A stretch of 64,000 nucleotides of DNA, from NCBI RefSeq assembly GCF_000151315.2, contig NW_011887294.1, positions 975,951 to 1,039,950 on the forward strand, written 5' to 3'. Below are positions 20,223 through 46,189 of the stretch, one piece after another (within the stretch, counting starts at the first letter, position 1; every line of letters starts with the position of its first letter). A program made the translations under genes and the position numbers. The DNA is from Capsaspora owczarzaki ATCC 30864. Its lineage: Eukaryota > Opisthokonta > Filasterea. The notes beneath the pieces were generated by a model. The model saw nothing but the letters and a program-made list of their open reading frames with translations. It searched no databases and was not told where the DNA came from.

Positions 20223-23200
20223 TCACAAGGCGATCACCTTTTGACCTGCTGGGCTGCTGGCAGGAGTGATCAACCCTTGGCTGCCTTCGACAACGGACTC
20301 GATCGTCATGGCCTGCTCGGAATGACTCGGGGCTTGACGCTGCGTGCCAGCTGATGAGAGGAATGATGCAAGCGGGAAGAGCTCTTTGGTCGTTGCAGTG
20401 GTAGGCGACGGGCGCTTCCTGGGGCGCTTTTGCTTGTCACCGGAGGTCGGCGGCGTGAGCTGCTGTCGCTTTGAATCCATCGGTGTCGTGGGCTGCTGCG
20501 CATCTTGTGGTTGCTGTGGTTCCTTGGTTGCATCCAGCTGTTGGCGCTGCTGCCGCTCGGCCTCCTGCTTGGCCTTGCGAGCAGCAGTTTCGGCAAAGTA
20601 CGCGGGCTGCAACGACTCCAAACCCAGAGAGGCAAGCATCTGGTCTTTGACAAAGAACAGTGGCTTTTTAGAGATGGCTGGCCGGACCTCCTTGACGGCA
20701 ATGTCGAGCAGCTTCTTGATGGTTTGACGCTTGCTGACCTCGGGATGCCGAGTGACAAACTCGGCTCCGATGGGATCCACGCCGCGACTCGTGCCGTGGA
20801 CCATGCGCACAAGCTCGGGCAGCAAGTCGTCCGTGAAAGCCTTCACGTTGGAATTCAGGGTCGCTGCTTCGCCGGGCTCGGCTGGGTTGGCCGACTCGCC
20901 GGTGGTTGCCGCGACAAAAGCAGCGGGAGGGGCAAAGTTGAAGGGATCAACACCCTCAGCGCCAAAGTCAAACAGGGGATTGACAGCAAACTTGGCCAGG
21001 AAGTGGAACTGCTGCAAGGTCTTTTGCTTGGACAAGGCGACAGCCCGCGAGATCTTGTTGGCCGGCAATCCTGCGGGAAGACGAGCAATGACACTTTCGT
21101 CGGAAGGAGGGGCGTACGGCGCAAACAAGACACCAATCTTGAGGGAAACTAGGTTTTGTGCTCGCTTCTTGAGCTCGAGCTCGGCCGCTTGCAGGTGACG
21201 CTTTTTGCGCGCTGCAGCCTCCTCGGCTGCGTTTGCTTCGCCGCTCTGGCTTTCGCTGTGTGTGCGCTTGGTCGAGAGACGTGGTTCAGCCGGCGCCGCT
21301 GCACTCTCGTCGTCCGAATCCACGCGCATCGAGCTGGGCTGTGCCTTGCGTGACGCGGCAGGCTTGCTGGGGGTGGGTTGGTCGGCGTCATCCGCAGACG
21401 TGTCGTCGTCGCTGCCTTCATCGTCACTGGCGTCGTCGTCGGCAAACTCGCCAAGGTCGTCGTCGGCGTCATCTTCGTCGGCAGCGGCGTCCACGCCTTC
21501 GTCGTCAGAAAGATAGCCATGAGGCACGACAAAATCGTCCATCTCCTCGTCGATGGCGAGCTCGTCCTCTTCGCGGGAGACTTTGCGCTTTTCGGCCTTC
21601 TTGGAGCGAGGAGCAAAGTCGCTCAACTCGCCCAGACCAGCCGTGGCCTCCATTTCCTCCTCGTCCTCTTCGCACGAGCTGAGAGACTCGCCAATCTCGG
21701 CATCCGCCTCGTCCCAATCCTGGTCCGAGTCGTAATCATCGTCGTAGTTGTACTCGGGATCGGGCAGGAATGGTCGACGAGGGTTGGCAAACTTGGGCAC
21801 GTGCATGCAGCTGCCAAAGTACGGCGGACGGATTGAGCCGTCGTGTTGGATGTGGCGCATTTGCACAATCCGGTCGCCATGGATCAGCGGAGGGTTTGTT
21901 CGGGCGACAACAGGCCGACCAAGAATTCGATCGAGTTGAGCAGTCACCTCGGGACAAACGGTCACTGGTGCGACTTCATCGTCATTGTCAACGGCCATCG
22001 CCTCTGTTTCGGCAGCAGTAGCAATAGAAGTGTGTCGACGAACCAACTCGCGTCGGCTCGCGTGCCAACGACGCTTCAACTCGCGAGCACGAAGCTTGGC
22101 CTCGTGAAGGAAGGTGGGTGTCGCGGAAGCTTGCAGTGCCAGCAGGGTGTCAAGGCGCTGGGTATCTTCCGCCGTCCACTTGATGCGGACGCAGGGGGCC
22201 TCGTTGGGCTTGTTCTTGTTGTCCTTTGCCTTGGTCTCGACCGTTGCCTCCTCCGACACAGCCTTCACAGGGTTGGTGGTCTGAGGTGCGCCGCTGCTGC
22301 CTTTCATGAGCATTCCGAAAAATCGAGCTTCGGCTTGCTTCTTCTTGGCCAGTTCGTCCTCAATGGCCTTGGCCTTGGCAGCCTCATCCGCGAGTCGCTT
22401 GTTTTCCTTGTCTGCCTCTCGCTTGGCCTTCAGGGCGGCCTCATCGGCAATGCGCTTGGCCCGCTCGGCTTCCTGCTGGGCCTTGGCAGCCTCCTTGCGC
22501 ACACGCTCTTCCTCCTTGGCAAGGTCCTTTTGTCGCTTCTCGTCCTCCTTGCGCTTCTTGGCGTCTTCGCGCTCTTGGTTTTTCTTTTGCACTTCCAGCT
22601 CGCGTTGAAGCTTTTGTTCGTCCTTTTGCCGCTTTGCGTCTTCCTTTTGGCGAAGCAGCTCCTCCTTTCGGCGGGCGGCCTCGGCTTTGGCCAGCTTGGC
22701 AGCCTCGTCCTTCTCGGCGCGCTTGGCGGCAGCGGCAAGCTTGCGAGCTTCGCGTGCATCTTGGTTTTCGTTGGCATCAGGCTCCTCTGCGTCTGCCGCC
22801 TCTGTGGCCTCTTCTGCGGGCTCGGCATCAAGGCCGTCGTCTTGCTCTCCTTTCGCAAGCCGATCGACAGCCTTCTTGGCAGCTGTGCGCCGTGGGCGAC
22901 CGCCATTGTTGGTTTCGGTCACTGGGGTGCCCTCGTCGGCAGAAACGTCCATCGGCTCGGCAGCCTCGACCAGGTCTGGAGTGGAAGCGGCGCCCACTTT
23001 CGGAGGAGAGGAAATCACACAAGAAGATCCGACCGGGAAGCCAAAGAACGAGCTTTGAGACGAAATATCCTCGGCACCTTCAGGAACGGTCAGTGCAGGC
23101 CTCGCAATGGCAACCGCCGCTCGAGGTGCCACGCCAAAGAAGGAGCTTTGTGAAGACATGTCCTCGGCACCTTCAGGGACGGCGAGTGCAGGCATGGCAA

Positions 23201-24216
23201 TGGCAAACGCTGCGCGGGGTGCCACGCCCAAGAACGAGCTCTGAGAAGACATGTCCTCGGTTCCATCAGCCACCAACAACGGCGGCGTGATTAGAGTTTC
23301 GAGCGAAGCGACAACCGGCACAACCACCGTTGGCTCGTGCAGGCTCTCGAGACGCTTCAGCTCGGCCTCTCTGCTTGCCTGTCGAGCCTTGTCTTTGTTA
23401 CTCGTGATGACCACCTTGGTGTGCGGCGCTGCGAAGGGAGTGATGTCCTCATCGCGCTCAGACACGATTCTTGGCTTTTTGCTCGGTGACTTTGCAACAA
23501 CTCGGGGCTCCTCGACGGGATCCGCCTAGAATCAAAAAAAAAAAGGTGATGAGAAGAGTGTAAAATAGAAACCGAGTCAGCAAAAGTCATGCAGCACTCC
23601 ATTGAACGCGAACAAAGAAACGACAAGTGAACAAAAAAGAGTAGAGGTTGCGTTACCAATCGCTTGCTTGTGACTGCCGCTGATGCCTGCTCTGCAACCT
23701 GTAGAGTGGAAGACATATGTTGCGAGCGCATCGCGACCACACCAAGTGAGCAACCGAGACAGATCAGGCAGTTGCAAATGCAGCACAAACAAACGAATGA
23801 AATAAAAAAAAAAAAAGGCGGGAAAAGCTCGGTTGGTGGCGGGAAGCCAATCGCGCACTCACCTGCATAGACGGCGCGGGATTCTGCGCTGGAGTCGCTG
23901 AGGATGCCTGTGTCGTGTCCTTGGATTTCGCTCCTTGCCTTGCGAACAGGGCGGCAATGCCGGTTCTGAAAACAGGCGCGCGACCATAACAAGCAAGCGT
24001 TGGCGGGAGAAAATTTGAGTTTTTGGCGCCAAAAGGCCTTCCAGCGTTTCTCCTCTTTGTCGCGTCGCCCAACGCCACCGCCGTGACCAAGCCACGAGCC
24101 CTCGAGGGCTTGGTGTGGCAGCAGACCCCCGATGCGGTCGCGGCGGCAAGGGCCGAGCACACCAATCCCCCTAATCCCCCGTCTATTGGGCCTTACGCTT
24201 TGCCTCGACTGCTCAT
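20223..24216 (-). CDS. CHAF1A: Chromatin assembly factor 1 large subunit (p150/Cac1)
   Basis: Histone H3-H4 chaperone subunit that deposits nucleosomes behind the replication fork with PCNA. Four exons join in phase: 24197-24216 (only 20 nt, MSSRGKA), 23863-23965, 23657-23698 and 20223-23525, giving 1,155 aa. The long exon shows, in order: a tandem 31-residue repeat; a highly charged KER coiled coil (dense Lys/Glu/Arg with KRQKDEQK-type runs); RFFGMLMKG just after it, where CAF-1 proteins have a PIP-like motif; the ED domain beginning RPPYFGS and running into acidic DYDSDQDWDEAD; and the conserved DDFVVPHGYLSDDEG. The C-terminal region would carry the winged helix. Its start codon is 145 bp from that of the divergent MMAA gene. 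Confidence 0.92.
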
Positions 24217-34713: not shown

Positions 34714-37700
34714 ATGGCCGCGACCAAAGTCGACGACTTGCGCATGACCCAGACGTACACACCCGGCGGCAGCAGCAGCAGCAGTGGCAACGGCGCAGCT
34801 GGGACGACCAGACAAGGACAAACGGCAGCCATGACGCATCTTCAATCACAGCAAGATTTCAACGTCAACGGCGAGCACACAGCGTGCGGACCGAGCAGCA
34901 GCAGCTACACGAACAGCGCTAGTCCTCGCAGTAGCTTCAGCAGCGCCAGCAGTGACAGCAGCCCAGCGACACGACGAGCCGGACCGCTCGAGGATCGGGC
35001 CTCAAAAAGTCAACAACGAGCCAACGCCTCTTCGTCGTCATCCGCCCCAACGGGCAACAAACCGCTCAGCACCGTCGCCAGCTCCGGCGACCGCAACGAG
35101 TGCGACGATAGCAGCGACGACTCTGCCTCGTCCGAGTCCGAAGACGACGACGAGGAATGCGAGGACGAGGAGGACGGCCGCGTGCAAGCGACACCTCGCA
35201 CCATCGAAGATGTCGAATCATTCTATCGGCTGGACAAGCAGCTTGGCCAGGGCGCCCACGGCTACGTTCGCCTCGGCTACCACCTCCTCACCAACGAAGA
35301 GGTGAGTTTTTTTGTTGTTGCTGCTCATTGTCGGATTTTTTGTTGCCGCGTGCAGCCCGAATGAAGGCGGTGCACGTGCGGGGGAAAGGGGAGGGTTATC
35401 TTTTCAGACCCTAAAAAGGCGGAAAATTGGGCTTGTTCGCTCGTGCGTGGAGCCCCCGCTTCTGGCCTGCGCTGCCAACAAAGCTGGTGTGGGGGTGGGG
35501 ATGGGAAGGGTGGAGAAGTGGATGGCAGCTCGAGCCACTCCAGGTTGGGAGGGCAGCAGTCAGTGAACACCGAGTGCGAGTCATATTAAAAAAAATCGAA
35601 TACCTGTTGCTTATCAACAAAAAAAAAAAAAGTTTGTGGGGTTTTTGGGTCTATTTTTTTATTTTTTTTTTTTTTGTCGCTTTTATTTTATTTTGATTTT
35701 TTTTTTCGCTTTTTTCTTGTATTCCTTGCTCCTTGCGCTTCTTCCTCTTTGACTTTGACATTTTTCTTCTTCTTCTTCTTCTTTGTCGGCTTTCCCCCAT
35801 TGTTTGAACGATGGTGTCGCGGATGGGCGTCAGACGAACAAAAAAAAAACTCAAAGCAAACGAAAACGAACAAAAACGAAAACAAACCAAACGATTTGGA
35901 AAAATTCGGGGGATTTTTTTTTGTTTTTTTTTTTTTTTTAAGAACCATTCAAATGACTCACCGCATCCAACAAAATTGCGCTGCTGTGATTATGAATCGT
36001 GCCCCTTGGTTGAGCAGGTCGCGCTCAAGTTCATCCCGCGCAAAGAGTTTGACATGCACGCATTCGAAGTTCGTGCGTTGCGAATGCTGCATCACCAGCA
36101 CATTGTGCGACTCTACGATGTCATCGAGACGTCCAAGCATGTAGTCCTTGTTCTCGAGTACATGCCAGGAGGTATGTGCTGCATGACCAGCTGCGTGTGT
36201 ATTCTGAGCTCGTTTTCTTGCGTTCTCAATTCGCAACAACAACAACCTCAAAAAAAAATGCTGCTACCTTAACTTAGGCGAGCTTTTCGATCACATCGTT
36301 GCGCGTCAACGATTGAGCGAGCACGAAGCAAGAAAGATTGCCCGTCAGCTGGCATCGGCGCTCCACTACTGCCACAAGCAGGGCATCGTTCATCGTGATC
36401 TCAAAGCAAGTTTTCCTCGCTGCTTTCGTCGTTGAAAGGTGGATGGCGCCTTCTCACTTTGACCTTTTGGTGCTCTTTTTGTCTCCTTGCTTGTAGCTTG
36501 AAAATTGCCTGATGGACTTGGAGGGCAAGGTCAAAATTGCAGACTTTGGTTTTGCGAACGCCTTTGCGCCTGGACAGCTGATGGTGCGTTTCCAACAGTG
36601 CAGCAGAATTGCAGGTTGCTTTTGAGAATTTTTTTTGCACTGCTAACCCACACTCTTCCTTTGCAACTTGTTGTTTGTGCAGTCCACGTTTGTCGGCTCC
36701 CTCGCCTACACCTCACCGGGTAATGTTTGAGTTTTATTGCTGCTTTGAACGCCTCCATCCAGCACATTCTAACTCCCACCCCTCCCCCATCCCTCGATTT
36801 TACTCGCAGAAATTATCAAGAACGAACACTACGTCGGGCCGGCCGCCGACGTGTGGAGCTATGGTGTCTTGCTGTTTACGCTGGTGATGGGTCGTCTCCC
36901 GTTCGCCAGTGAGACGCTCAATCAAGGCGAGATGATTTCGCGCATTCTTGCTGGATCTTTTCTTCTTCCCGAGATCCAGCTGTCTGGCGGTGAGTAGGAG
37001 CACGCTGCTTGTTTGCGTTTGGGTTTGTTTGCTTGCTTGTTTGTTCGGACTGCTGCTGCTGATAACTTACCAACAATCATGGTTGTTGCTACGCAGAGTT
37101 CTGCAACTTGATTCGAAGCATTCTGCGTGTCGTGCCATCAGAGCGCCCGACCATTGAGCAAATTCTCAGCCACCCCTGGATTCTCGGGCCTTCGCAGACC
37201 CCCGTCGAGCACTGCCAGGGCGAAAGTCGCGAGATTGATGAGACTGTCATTGCCGAGCTGGCGCGCATGGGTCGTCCTGTGGGCGATTTGCGTGCTCACC
37301 TGGAAACCCAGTCTGTCAATCATGCCACGGCTGATTATCTGCTGCTCAATCGCCGTATGATTGCCCAGCGGCAAGAGGCAGAGATGAACGCGATGATTGA
37401 GCAGGTAGCTCTGCAACTGGCCGAGCGCTACGCCAAGCCGCCAGCGCCCAACTCTGGTCGGCCACCAGCCGCTGCCAACCGCCATCGACGCTTCTCGGTG
37501 GACACCACCACGCTGAAAACGCGCCAATCGCACTCCAATGCAGAGTATGACTTGGCCCACAAGCTCGAGCCTGATCGCACACCGCGCACAAGAACGCGGA
37601 GCAGCGGCGCACCAGCATATCTGGACGTCAATCGTCGCAAGGAAGAAACCATCCCCAAGCCGTCGGCGAATCGTCGTCTGAGCATTGGCCTCGCGAGTGC

Positions 37701-39141
37701 TTTCGGATTTGGCTCGTCCAAGAACAAGCCTTACGCGACCCACTCGCCGCGATCGGGGTCCCCGGCTCCGACGCCTGGCTACGACACCAACGACGACTCA
37801 TCCGCCCCATCGTCGGCAAACACGACGGGCACAGGGCGCCGATTCTTCCGTGACTCTGGCTTTGGCAGTGATATCAACATGAGCTCCTCCAGCCTCAACA
37901 GCAATGGCGAGCCGGCATCGCCCTGCGCCACCTCACCTACGACAGGTCAACGCCTTGCCGCTTGGATGCGCAAGCGCTTCCGTCGCAGCTCCACCGCCGA
38001 AGACGTTTCGGCCTCCAAGAGCAACCCCACCAGCCCCAAGCTCTCCAATCGTTCGTCGCGTTTAAGCGTCTGCGACACTGACGCCCACCACCACCACCAC
38101 CACCACCAACAGCCGAATGAGACAGTCATGCTTCAACCGGTGCCCAAGCCTGAGGACGTGCAAGCCGTCATTGATTTCTGGTCCATCGCCGAAGCTGAGG
38201 AAACGATTCTCTCCATGCCCGTTCCCGCAAACGACACGCTCGCGCTCCCTGCCGATCCCGCGGATGAGGCCACTCCATTGGCCCAGTCTCCTGCTGCACC
38301 CGCTAGCTCCACTGCATTCCGTGCCACTGATCAACAGCTCCACCAGAGCCCGCCGAAACCTGCCAAAGTGGCTCAACTGCAGCTTGACGATGCCACCACC
38401 TCCTCGTCGACGATTGGTGCGCACACAGAGTCTGCAGACATGTGCACCTCATCCGCCGACGCGACTCCCCAAGGGTCAGCTACTACTCTTCCGTCGCCAC
38501 GCTTGTCCTTGCGCAGCGGCAAGGCTCGTCCGCTGTCAGAAGAGCCAATGCGCTTTGGCGAGCACCCTAGCTCTGCCTACCGAATTTCCGGCGGTGCAGC
38601 ATCGACTGGGGCGCCAGCAGTCTCTGAGCCTAAATCATGGATGACTGCCGCCTTGACCCCACGAAGCGACTCTGCTCTTTCGCCCGACTCGCAGCTCTAC
38701 GAACCCAAACGTGCTTCGTTTACCCGCTTCATCCAGCGCTTCCGAAACTCGTCCGACTCCACGGCGGATCCGCTGACTGCCTTGAATGCCCAGAACGATC
38801 GCCGTAGCAAGGCGTTCCACATGCAGGAGGTTGAAGTGTCGCTCTCAAACAGTGCTCGCAAAGCCCATGCGCGCAAGTTTGGTGTGGCGACCACAACCAC
38901 CCTCTCCCCTTCCAAATTGCTCGACCGCGTGACGGCATCGCTGGTTCACAACAAGGTTCGCTTTACCATCCTTGGTCTGATCGTGTCTTGCTCCGCTCAA
39001 GACCTCAGCTGGGAAATTGAAGTGTGCAAGCTCCCTCATCTTGACGGATTCAGCGGCATTGTCTTCCGTCGCACCGCTGGCGAGCTTTGGCGCTACAAGC
39101 AAATGACTGATCGCCTCACCAAGGACATGAACCTCGTGTGA
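34714..39141 (+). CDS. CAMK-group Ser/Thr kinase with UBA-like and KA1 domains (MARK/AMPK-related)
   Basis: Seven exons join in phase: 34714-35301, 36018-36171, 36278-36405, 36497-36583, 36683-36719, 36810-36989, 37097-39141; 1,072 aa. A Ser-rich acidic N-terminus precedes the kinase domain (about aa 170-418): [10 protein letters not shown] glycine loop, VALKF lysine, HRDLKLEN catalytic loop, DFGFAN, SPE and the terminal HPWIL. All catalytic residues are present. A UBA-like helical stretch (IAELARMG to ADYLLLNRR) follows, as in MARK/AMPK-related kinases. A long low-complexity region includes a poly-His run. The C-terminal KA1 domain ([25 protein letters not shown]) binds acidic phospholipids in MARKs. 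The activation loop reads [13 protein letters not shown], unusual for MARKs; MELK, NUAK or Kin4-like alternatives remain open. Intron 3 is GC-AG. Confidence 0.92.
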
Positions 39142-39500: not shown

Positions 39501-41459
39501 TTACTGCTGAACGCAAGCAGGCTCGGTTTGGACATTGGCCTGCTTAATGTTAATCACTCGTGCTGAAGGCTCTTCTGCTCTCGCAATGCTCTTCTTTGCA
39601 GTTGCATTTGGGGGATTAGATGCCTGGACGAGCTGCGGAGCGTTCAAATTCTCGCTCTCCAAGTCAGGAATGGGGCAAGTCTTGGATTGAACCGTGGGTG
39701 GCGATGGAGCTTGTGTATCAGCCGCCTCCTTTGATGGAAGTGCTTCGTGCGGGCGTGATTGGGGCTGCTGGAGTTGCTGCGATTGCTGCGGCTGCTGCGA
39801 TTGCTGCGATTGCTGCGGCTCAATGCCGTTTGTCGACGACTCCACCTGCTGCATCAAAAGCGTCTCATCCAGCTTGATTTTAAGCTGCACGTTTTCTTTG
39901 CGGAGCTCTTCGATTTGAGTTGCTTGGCGATAGCTCTGCGTCTCGAGATCGCGCACCCGGTTGATGTCGTTCAGTTGGAGCATTTGGCGAGTGCGGAGCT
40001 CCTTCTTGCTGGTCGCGAGGGCCGCTCGAGCCGTTTCCGCCTCGGTCTCCAGGTACTCAATGTAGGCACTGTGCTCTGCAGAGAGGCCTCCGGCACCAAA
40101 CTCTCCAATGACACGGCCCGACGACGACGACGACTTGGATCCGGAACTGGCGGAGGAGGAGCCAGTGCCCATGACTGCCCTAGCTTTCACCAGTTGGGAC
40201 TGGATGTGCTTCTTATCGTCCTCCAAGAGCTCGATTTGCAGGCAGAGCTGGCGCGTTTCGCTCTGGAGCTGCGCGTTGTCTTGCTCGAGGCGCGTCATTT
40301 TCGCTTGATCCGCCTTGCTGCCTTGCATCTGGAGCATGTTGTTCAGCTGCGCGTTCAACTTTTGATTCTGCAGGCGAGCGAGATCAAAGCTCTTGGCGAG
40401 CTGTCTGAGGGTGCTTGTGGTGGATGCGAGCTGACGCTCCAGCTCGGCACGGCGGTCTTCGACATCGCTAAATACCGACCTTCCGGTCTGCATTTTGCCA
40501 GCGCGCCGGTCGGCTTCAAGAGAGCACTCCAACTCGAGATCTTCAACTCGCTGACGCTGGGACTCGATCGTATTGGTCAGCGAAATGATTTGCGCTTCGT
40601 GCTCTTGGGCGGCTCCCATCAGTCCGCCAATCTTGGCCTTCAAGTGCTTGGACTCGGACAGTTGAGTCGCAACTGTCGTCTCCAGCGACTGGATGCGCGA
40701 CTGTCGCTCTTCGCTGAGCACCTTGGTCTTGAGGAGGGCCTCTTCCAGCTCGTACACACGCTGAATGGCAAAGTCATCCGCGTCGTCGTCCGGTTCATTC
40801 TCGTTGTTGTTGTTCTCGTCGTGGACTTGGTCCTCAGCGTCTGCGTCTGCTGCATCCTTCGACGCGCTGCCCCGCGCACTCGGCGGCGACTGCTCTGAAT
40901 CTCGAGTCGGGTCGGTCGCCAGGCGCAACCACTTGCTTCGCATGCGCTTTCGGGCGAGCTCAGCATTTCGAACCGCCGACTCTGTGCGAATCAGCGCCAA
41001 TCCCTGCTGCTCGTGCGCCGCCTGGAGCTTTGCAAACGCAGCCCGCTGCTCCTCCGTGTCGGCCTGGGCCAGTTCCAGCTGGGTCGTCAGGTCCTGGACG
41101 ACTTGAGCCTGGCGCCGCTCGCGTTGCTGAAGCTCTTGTCGCTCTGTTTCAAGCTCCTCGCGGGCGACCACGGATTCGCGGTCCAGGTCGCGTCGAGCGT
41201 TGGCCAGCCCTCGGCTCGAAGCTTCCAGCTGCACTTGAAGCTGGTGGTTGGCGTTCTCGAGCCCCGCGATGCGGGACGACAGCTCTGAAACGGCCTGGTC
41301 GTGCTGGGCGGTGAGCTGGTTGTTGCTCTCCAGCAGCGCCTGCCCAAGCTGCGCAGACAGAATCAAGTCAGACTCCTTGGCACGCAGAATGCTGTTCACT
41401 TCGTCTAGCTCAGTGCGCAGGCGTTGAATCCGCGCGGCAGCATCGCTCGTATCGGTCAT
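39501..41459 (-). CDS. SPDL1: Spindly-like dynein adaptor, coiled coil, C-terminal CAAX box
   Basis: A 652-aa, almost entirely coiled-coil protein in one exon from the ATG at 41459. Near the N-terminus, AKESDLILSAQLGQALLES matches the CC1 box (AAxxG-type, dynein light intermediate chain contact) of BICD/Spindly/TRAK adaptors; here the first Ala is Ser. About 280 residues in, GRSVFSDVEDRRAELERQL matches the Spindly motif (human SLFGEVEDRR, from memory), which contacts the dynactin pointed end, and the following LNNMLQMQGSKAD resembles human Spindly too. The protein ends CVQQ, a farnesylation-type CAAX box like human Spindly's CPQQ. The spacing of all three elements supports Spindly over BICD or TRAK. 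Predicted role: dynein-dynactin recruitment to kinetochores with the RZZ complex. The acidic insert (DDDADD) is local. Confidence 0.8.
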   Translation of the reverse strand: MTDTSDAAARIQRLRTELDEVNSILRAKESDLILSAQLGQALLESNNQLTAQHDQAVSELSSRIAGLENANHQLQVQLEASSRGLANARRDLDRESVVAREELETERQELQQRERRQAQVVQDLTTQLELAQADTEEQRAAFAKLQAAHEQQGLALIRTESAVRNAELARKRMRSKWLRLATDPTRDSEQSPPSARGSASKDAADADAEDQVHDENNNNENEPDDDADDFAIQRVYELEEALLKTKVLSEERQSRIQSLETTVATQLSESKHLKAKIGGLMGAAQEHEAQIISLTNTIESQRQRVEDLELECSLEADRRAGKMQTGRSVFSDVEDRRAELERQLASTTSTLRQLAKSFDLARLQNQKLNAQLNNMLQMQGSKADQAKMTRLEQDNAQLQSETRQLCLQIELLEDDKKHIQSQLVKARAVMGTGSSSASSGSKSSSSSGRVIGEFGAGGLSAEHSAYIEYLETEAETARAALATSKKELRTRQMLQLNDINRVRDLETQSYRQATQIEELRKENVQLKIKLDETLLMQQVESSTNGIEPQQSQQSQQPQQSQQLQQPQSRPHEALPSKEAADTQAPSPPTVQSKTCPIPDLESENLNAPQLVQASNPPNATAKKSIARAEEPSARVINIKQANVQTEPACVQQ

Positions 41460-41721: not shown

Positions 41722-46189
<4,468 letters not shown>

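Follow-up and report, generated by a model that had tools for sequence, protein, structure and literature searches.

Gene and genomic context

The window (the whole 64,000-nucleotide stretch of Capsaspora owczarzaki DNA analysed here) contains, at positions 39501–41459 of the minus strand, a single open frame of 652 codons plus stop that runs from ATG to TAA with zero internal stops. On the basis of this open frame and of its region-wise similarity to human Spindly, it is annotated as a Spindly-like gene. The original prediction of one uninterrupted coding frame is borne out, with the strand, which it had left unstated, being minus. The sequence elements it named are also present in the order given, with SAQLGQ beginning at residue 35, SVFSDV at 328, LQMQGS at 376 and CVQQ at 649.

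Convergent with this gene is a 677-residue frame on the plus strand (window 37108–39141) that carries a KA1 domain at its C-terminus (E 2.3e-14) and is likely to be part of a KA1-type protein kinase. Directly upstream of the Spindly gene lies a low-complexity, Q-rich frame, also of 677 residues (window 41722–43755, minus strand), for which a Pfam scan returned no match at E <= 0.001. A 293-residue frame (window 44225–45106, minus strand) gives a weak Cupin_8 match (E 2.5e-5, below the cut-off) and was judged by eye to encode a JmjC-type protein. Elsewhere in the window, an 1100-residue frame (20226–23525, minus strand) carries a CAF1A dimerisation domain (E 3.2e-13) and is likely to encode the large subunit of chromatin assembly factor 1.

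Motifs and domain layout

A single-sequence AlphaFold2 model (mean pLDDT 67.2) was used for its helix boundaries alone. It places helices at residues 4–132, 136–182, 184–187, 226–321, 327–431 and 461–543, followed from residue 544 by a low-confidence tail. In this model the arrangement of CC1a, CC1b, CC2 and CC3 as separate helices with a low-confidence tail is the layout of human Spindly described in PMC9481740.

The CC1 box (residues 29–52; window 41304–41375, minus strand), with its core SAQLG at residues 35–39, is where the dynein light intermediate chain (DLIC) is predicted to bind. It is identical to BICDR1 at 13 of 24 positions, to Spindly at 10 and to BICD2 at 9. Against the strict consensus AAxxG printed in PMC9481740 the candidate reads SAxxG, so that two of the three fixed letters are kept and the third is a small residue; relative to human Spindly, A23 is replaced by Ser, with A24 and G27 retained.

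Between CC1a and CC1b a disordered linker is predicted at residues 188–225 (window 40785–40898, minus strand), where the model has no helix and low pLDDT. Human Spindly instead has a two-residue insert, R154-V155, which favours autoinhibition (PMC9481740). The linker may be the equivalent of this hinge insert, a suggestion in which the position of the hinge is uncertain, since CC1b lacks a significant alignment: an extra stretch of the candidate (residues 186–236) is set opposite human residue 171.

The Spindly motif block (residues 326–345, GRSVFSDVEDRRAELERQLA; window 40425–40484, minus strand), a predicted contact with the pointed end of dynactin, is identical to human Spindly at 13 of 20 positions. 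It keeps the S and F at human positions 256 and 258 together with EDRR. The candidate motif is VFSDV, compared with LFAEV in the human protein. Measured against the adaptor consensus L-theta-x-E-theta given in PMC9481740, each fixed letter is changed to a similar one, with V in place of L and D in place of E. A helix break at residues 322–326 of the AlphaFold2 model immediately precedes the motif, and in human Spindly a break in the coiled coil lies directly before it (PMC9481740).

Within CC2, the LQMQGS block (residues 376–381; window 40317–40334, minus strand) is matched by LQMKGS of human Spindly in an ungapped alignment. Joint charge reversal of R295 and K297 opens the autoinhibited human protein (PMC9481740); in the candidate, the residue corresponding to R295 is Lys and that corresponding to K297 is Asn. 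The CC3 helix spans residues 461–543 (window 39831–40079, minus strand).

The candidate is 47 residues longer than human Spindly. Its Q-rich tail (residues 544–648; window 39516–39830, minus strand) is predicted to be disordered, with pLDDT <50 nearly throughout, and has no similarity to the human Spindly tail apart from the CAAX box (z −0.6). The C-terminal CVQQ (residues 649–652; window 39504–39515, minus strand), a predicted farnesylation (CAAX) box, abuts the TAA at 39501–39503 and occupies the same position as the C-terminal CPQQ of human Spindly. With residue frequencies drawn from the candidate and from a 1415-residue CENP-E-like frame described below (C 0.8%, Q 10.8%), CxQQ would end a protein by chance about once in 10,000. 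The farnesyl site of human Spindly is C602 (PMC10630089). Drosophila Spindly has no CAAX box (PMC10630089), and this feature is therefore not universal in the family.

Comparison with Spindly, BICD2 and BICDR1

The references were human Spindly, human BICD2 and a 480-residue piece of BICDR1, the first two as sequences checked in part. The comparison set consisted of stop-to-stop frames with a minimum length of 300 residues, 66 including the candidate; frames with masked letters had been dropped, and many of the 66 are not genes. Against human Spindly the candidate gives a Smith–Waterman score of 306; the stalk of the CENP-E-like frame comes next at 153, and the candidate read in reverse reaches 102. 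For human Spindly residues 251–605 the candidate has the top score, 184, against 85 for the runner-up among the 66 frames. The local alignment is collinear over candidate residues 25–542.

Coiled-coil background is high in such comparisons: with BICD2 the score is 226 for the CENP-E-like stalk and 127 for the reversed candidate, and with BICDR1 the stalk reaches 176. Whole-length scores were for this reason rejected as stand-alone evidence, and each region was scored against 1000 heptad-preserving shuffles; an earlier run with 300 local shuffles gave a matching picture. One other frame of the window that scores with BICDR1 (133) is the 1100-residue frame with the CAF1A domain.

Motif plus CC2 matches Spindly (z 11.2) and not BICD2 (z 0.2); its lower score with BICDR1 (z 3.1) stems from a non-corresponding part of that protein (residues 78–175 of the 480-residue piece). 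CC3 likewise matches Spindly (z 5.0) and neither BICD2 (z 0.7) nor BICDR1 (z −0.1). CC1a is similar to all three in the order BICDR1 (z 12.6), Spindly (z 9.1) and BICD2 (z 2.7), and CC1b matches none of them (z 0.8, 0.9 and −0.1 for Spindly, BICD2 and BICDR1). None of 1000 shuffles reached the Spindly score of CC1a, of motif plus CC2 or of CC3. The BICD2 scores were reached by 402 (motif plus CC2) and 245 (CC3) of 1000, and the BICDR1 scores by 6 and 516, respectively. Tail scores are z −1.3 with BICD2 and z 1.8 with BICDR1, the latter non-significant and reached by 17 of 300 shuffles.

The preference for Spindly over BICD-type adaptors expected in the original prediction thus holds from the Spindly motif onwards and fails for the CC1 region taken alone, which is nearer to BICDR1.

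A search of the PDB with the candidate produced six sequences at E <= 10: four of BICDR1 (7.4e-7 to 1.3e-6), the Spindly chain 8arf (0.058) and a FAK–paxillin chain (0.24). An assignment to BICDR from this whole-protein search was rejected; the ranking is attributed to the CC1 region and to the short coverage of 8arf, the one Spindly chain found, which spans just 100 residues of the protein. In Pfam, two families appeared at E <= 10, both below the cut-off: DUF4472 (E 0.025, residues 285–372) and a CAF17 domain (E 0.35). Neither BicD nor HAP1_N matched the candidate at that threshold, and by this profile comparison it differs from TRAK/HAP1-type adaptors.

Assignment

Very probably this gene codes for Spindly in a unicellular holozoan, as an orthologue of the animal protein and a predicted adaptor with a CC1 box, a Spindly motif and a CAAX signal. 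The assignment follows from the region beginning at the Spindly motif, where Spindly diverges from the BICD family and where the candidate matches human Spindly in order. With animal Spindly (SPDL1), for which the human protein was compared, it shares the succession of CC1 box, Spindly motif with EDRR, LQMxGS, CC3, disordered tail and CxQQ; it differs in its SAxxG box, which is nearer to that of BICDR1. A CC1 region of the BICD type is present, as judged from the CC1a scores, and the CC1 box itself is common to several adaptor families. With BICD2 the candidate shares the general plan of a CC1-box adaptor, and nothing after CC1 matches. The C-terminal cargo-binding region of BICD-type proteins is absent, there being no Pfam BicD match and a CC3 unlike that of either BICD2 or BICDR1.

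The combination of a BICDR-like CC1 with a Spindly-like CC2, CC3 and CAAX box might also be expected if the protein descended from an ancestor shared by Spindly and BICDR/BICD and had kept features of both, the animal BICD-type proteins having split off later. This reading, which overlaps with that of a Spindly orthologue, is considered unlikely, though it is the most probable of the alternatives. A BicD profile search of the genome gave no match, and the BICDR1 query found the candidate and one other CC1-box frame (E 0.044), as would fit such an ancestry. However, BicD was also blank in control genomes, so that its absence is not demonstrated, and similarity in a CC1 box that is short and common to several adaptor families cannot date the split.

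The BICDR1 query also bears on a different proposal, that the protein is a vesicle adaptor of the BICDR/BICD type whose CVQQ anchors it to membrane rather than to the Rod–Zwilch–ZW10 (RZZ) complex. The candidate is the best genome match of BICDR1 (E 1.1e-6), and BICDR1 is in turn its best match in the PDB and the protein to which its CC1a is nearest; the genome match runs through residues 4–175 of the BICDR1 piece. Beyond CC1 the similarity to BICDR1 is confined to the non-corresponding stretch noted above, and CC3 is unlike both BICDR1 and BICD2. Given also that no BicD domain was matched and that motif plus CC2 and CC3 both match Spindly, a vesicle adaptor is regarded as highly improbable. 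That an unrelated coiled-coil protein acquired these motifs by chance can practically be dismissed: the high background set by the CENP-E-like stalk and the reversed candidate is the one point in its favour, and it is countered by the failure of all shuffles to reach the three Spindly scores and by the 13 of 20 identities in the Spindly motif block.

Partner genes in the genome

The genome (27,456,641 bases in 29 contigs) was searched in six frames with profiles and sequences. Rod is represented by a 2428-residue frame with KNTC1_N, three ARM domains and Rod_C; for a piece of 1871 residues the sole PDB match at E <= 0.01 is KNTC1 (1.1e-82). Zwilch was found at E 2.0e-9 in the genome search, with a 438-residue frame at 3.4e-17. 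The middle and C-terminal domains of ZW10 occur in six of the seven frames scanned (best ZW10_C 5e-28), and Zw10_N had no match in the genome search. ZW10 also serves vesicle traffic (PMC5579357), and it therefore lends weak support to an RZZ–Spindly set. The search for Rod, Zwilch and ZW10 proposed with the original prediction thus recovered all three, Zw10_N alone being unmatched, and with the Spindly-specific similarity of motif plus CC2 and of CC3 the prediction of a protein closest to Spindly in a genome containing RZZ is upheld.

In one frame (L012) all 15 matched PDB sequences are named farnesyltransferase and none geranylgeranyltransferase (best E 2.7e-9, about 50 residues), which identifies it, from sequence, as a putative exon of the beta subunit of farnesyltransferase. 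The top-scoring prenyltransferase gene (L008) was rejected as a farnesyltransferase, its best PDB matches being the beta subunit of Rab geranylgeranyltransferase. Two further prenyltransferase loci lie at 2306 kb on contig C3 and at 769 kb on contig C12. DLIC is present (E 3.0e-27), as are the dynactin subunits p62 (8.9e-7) and dynamitin (4.4e-29), the two covered by the search. Integrin beta matches were recorded on contigs C2, C3, C6 and C8.

A CENP-E-like motor and a neighbouring frame ending in CAQQ

A motor sequence of human CENP-E was used as a query. The best of its 19 matches (contig C12, 445872–446498) has 63% identity over query residues 161–360; the first part of the motor was not located with this query. 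At this locus (contig C12, 437000–446900, minus strand) the 1415-residue frame, which ends in CAQQ, comes after the motor frame at a distance of 276 bases. Judged by eye, an intron of the form GTAAGA...GAAACAG would join the two frames in phase. In Obazoa the CAAX box of CENP-E is reported to occur together with Rod, Zwilch and Spindly (PMC10630089), and a CENP-E-like motor with a CAQQ frame fits this reported co-occurrence.

Functional and evolutionary implications

By analogy with animal Spindly, the orthologue would be a dimeric coiled-coil adaptor, in which the CC1 box would bind the dynein light intermediate chain and the Spindly motif the pointed end of dynactin. CVQQ, if farnesylated as in animals, would bind the Rod–Zwilch–ZW10 complex. 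Dynein would thereby be brought to unattached kinetochores, from which the corona would later be stripped. What the sequence itself shows is an uninterrupted reading frame, motifs in the same succession as in Spindly, similarity to Spindly that begins at the Spindly motif, and partner genes in the genome.

The further claim that the whole arrangement, lipid anchor included, predates animals agrees with published dating: Spindly has been placed at the base of Obazoa, and its CAAX box has been dated to no later than the ancestor of opisthokonts (Wu et al., 2023; PMC10630089). The pre-animal origin of the RZZ–Spindly system is thus already in print there, and the present gene confirms it rather than discovers it. 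A Rod–Zwilch–Spindly module is described in PMC5579357. Capsaspora is among the species profiled for mitotic and kinetochore proteins in PMC11153136, in the accessible main text of which the word 'Spindly' does not occur; as far as their accessible text goes, neither that study nor PMC8047447 settles the point. The literature searched contained nothing treating Spindly, the kinetochore and Capsaspora together.

Our analysis offers a check from the genome upwards that a unicellular relative of animals encodes an RZZ–Spindly set, and that Spindly and the frame next to the CENP-E-like motor each terminate in a CAAX-like sequence. Capsaspora is accordingly a place to ask what role the kinetochore corona had before animals.

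The BICDR-like CC1 region leaves room for a derivation of BICD-type adaptors from Spindly. Spindly would then be older than BICD, and the Capsaspora protein would retain the original architecture, in which a CC1 region like that of BICDR is combined with a kinetochore half of the Spindly type and a lipid anchor; the animal vesicle adaptors BICD and BICDR would go back to a duplicate of Spindly in which RZZ binding and the CAAX box were lost. We regard this as a speculative scenario, somewhat less probable still than simple descent from a common ancestor. The literature searched on the evolution of the adaptors, so far as its text was accessible, yielded no discussion of a BICDR-like CC1 region in Spindly.

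The other frame found by the BICDR1 query (contig C2, near position 243556) encodes a second CC1-box protein (LRLAAELGNLLLERN). It gave no PDB match at E <= 1 and has a weak HAP1_N match (E 0.0025, below the cut-off), and is possibly, from its sequence, a TRAK/HAP1-type adaptor.
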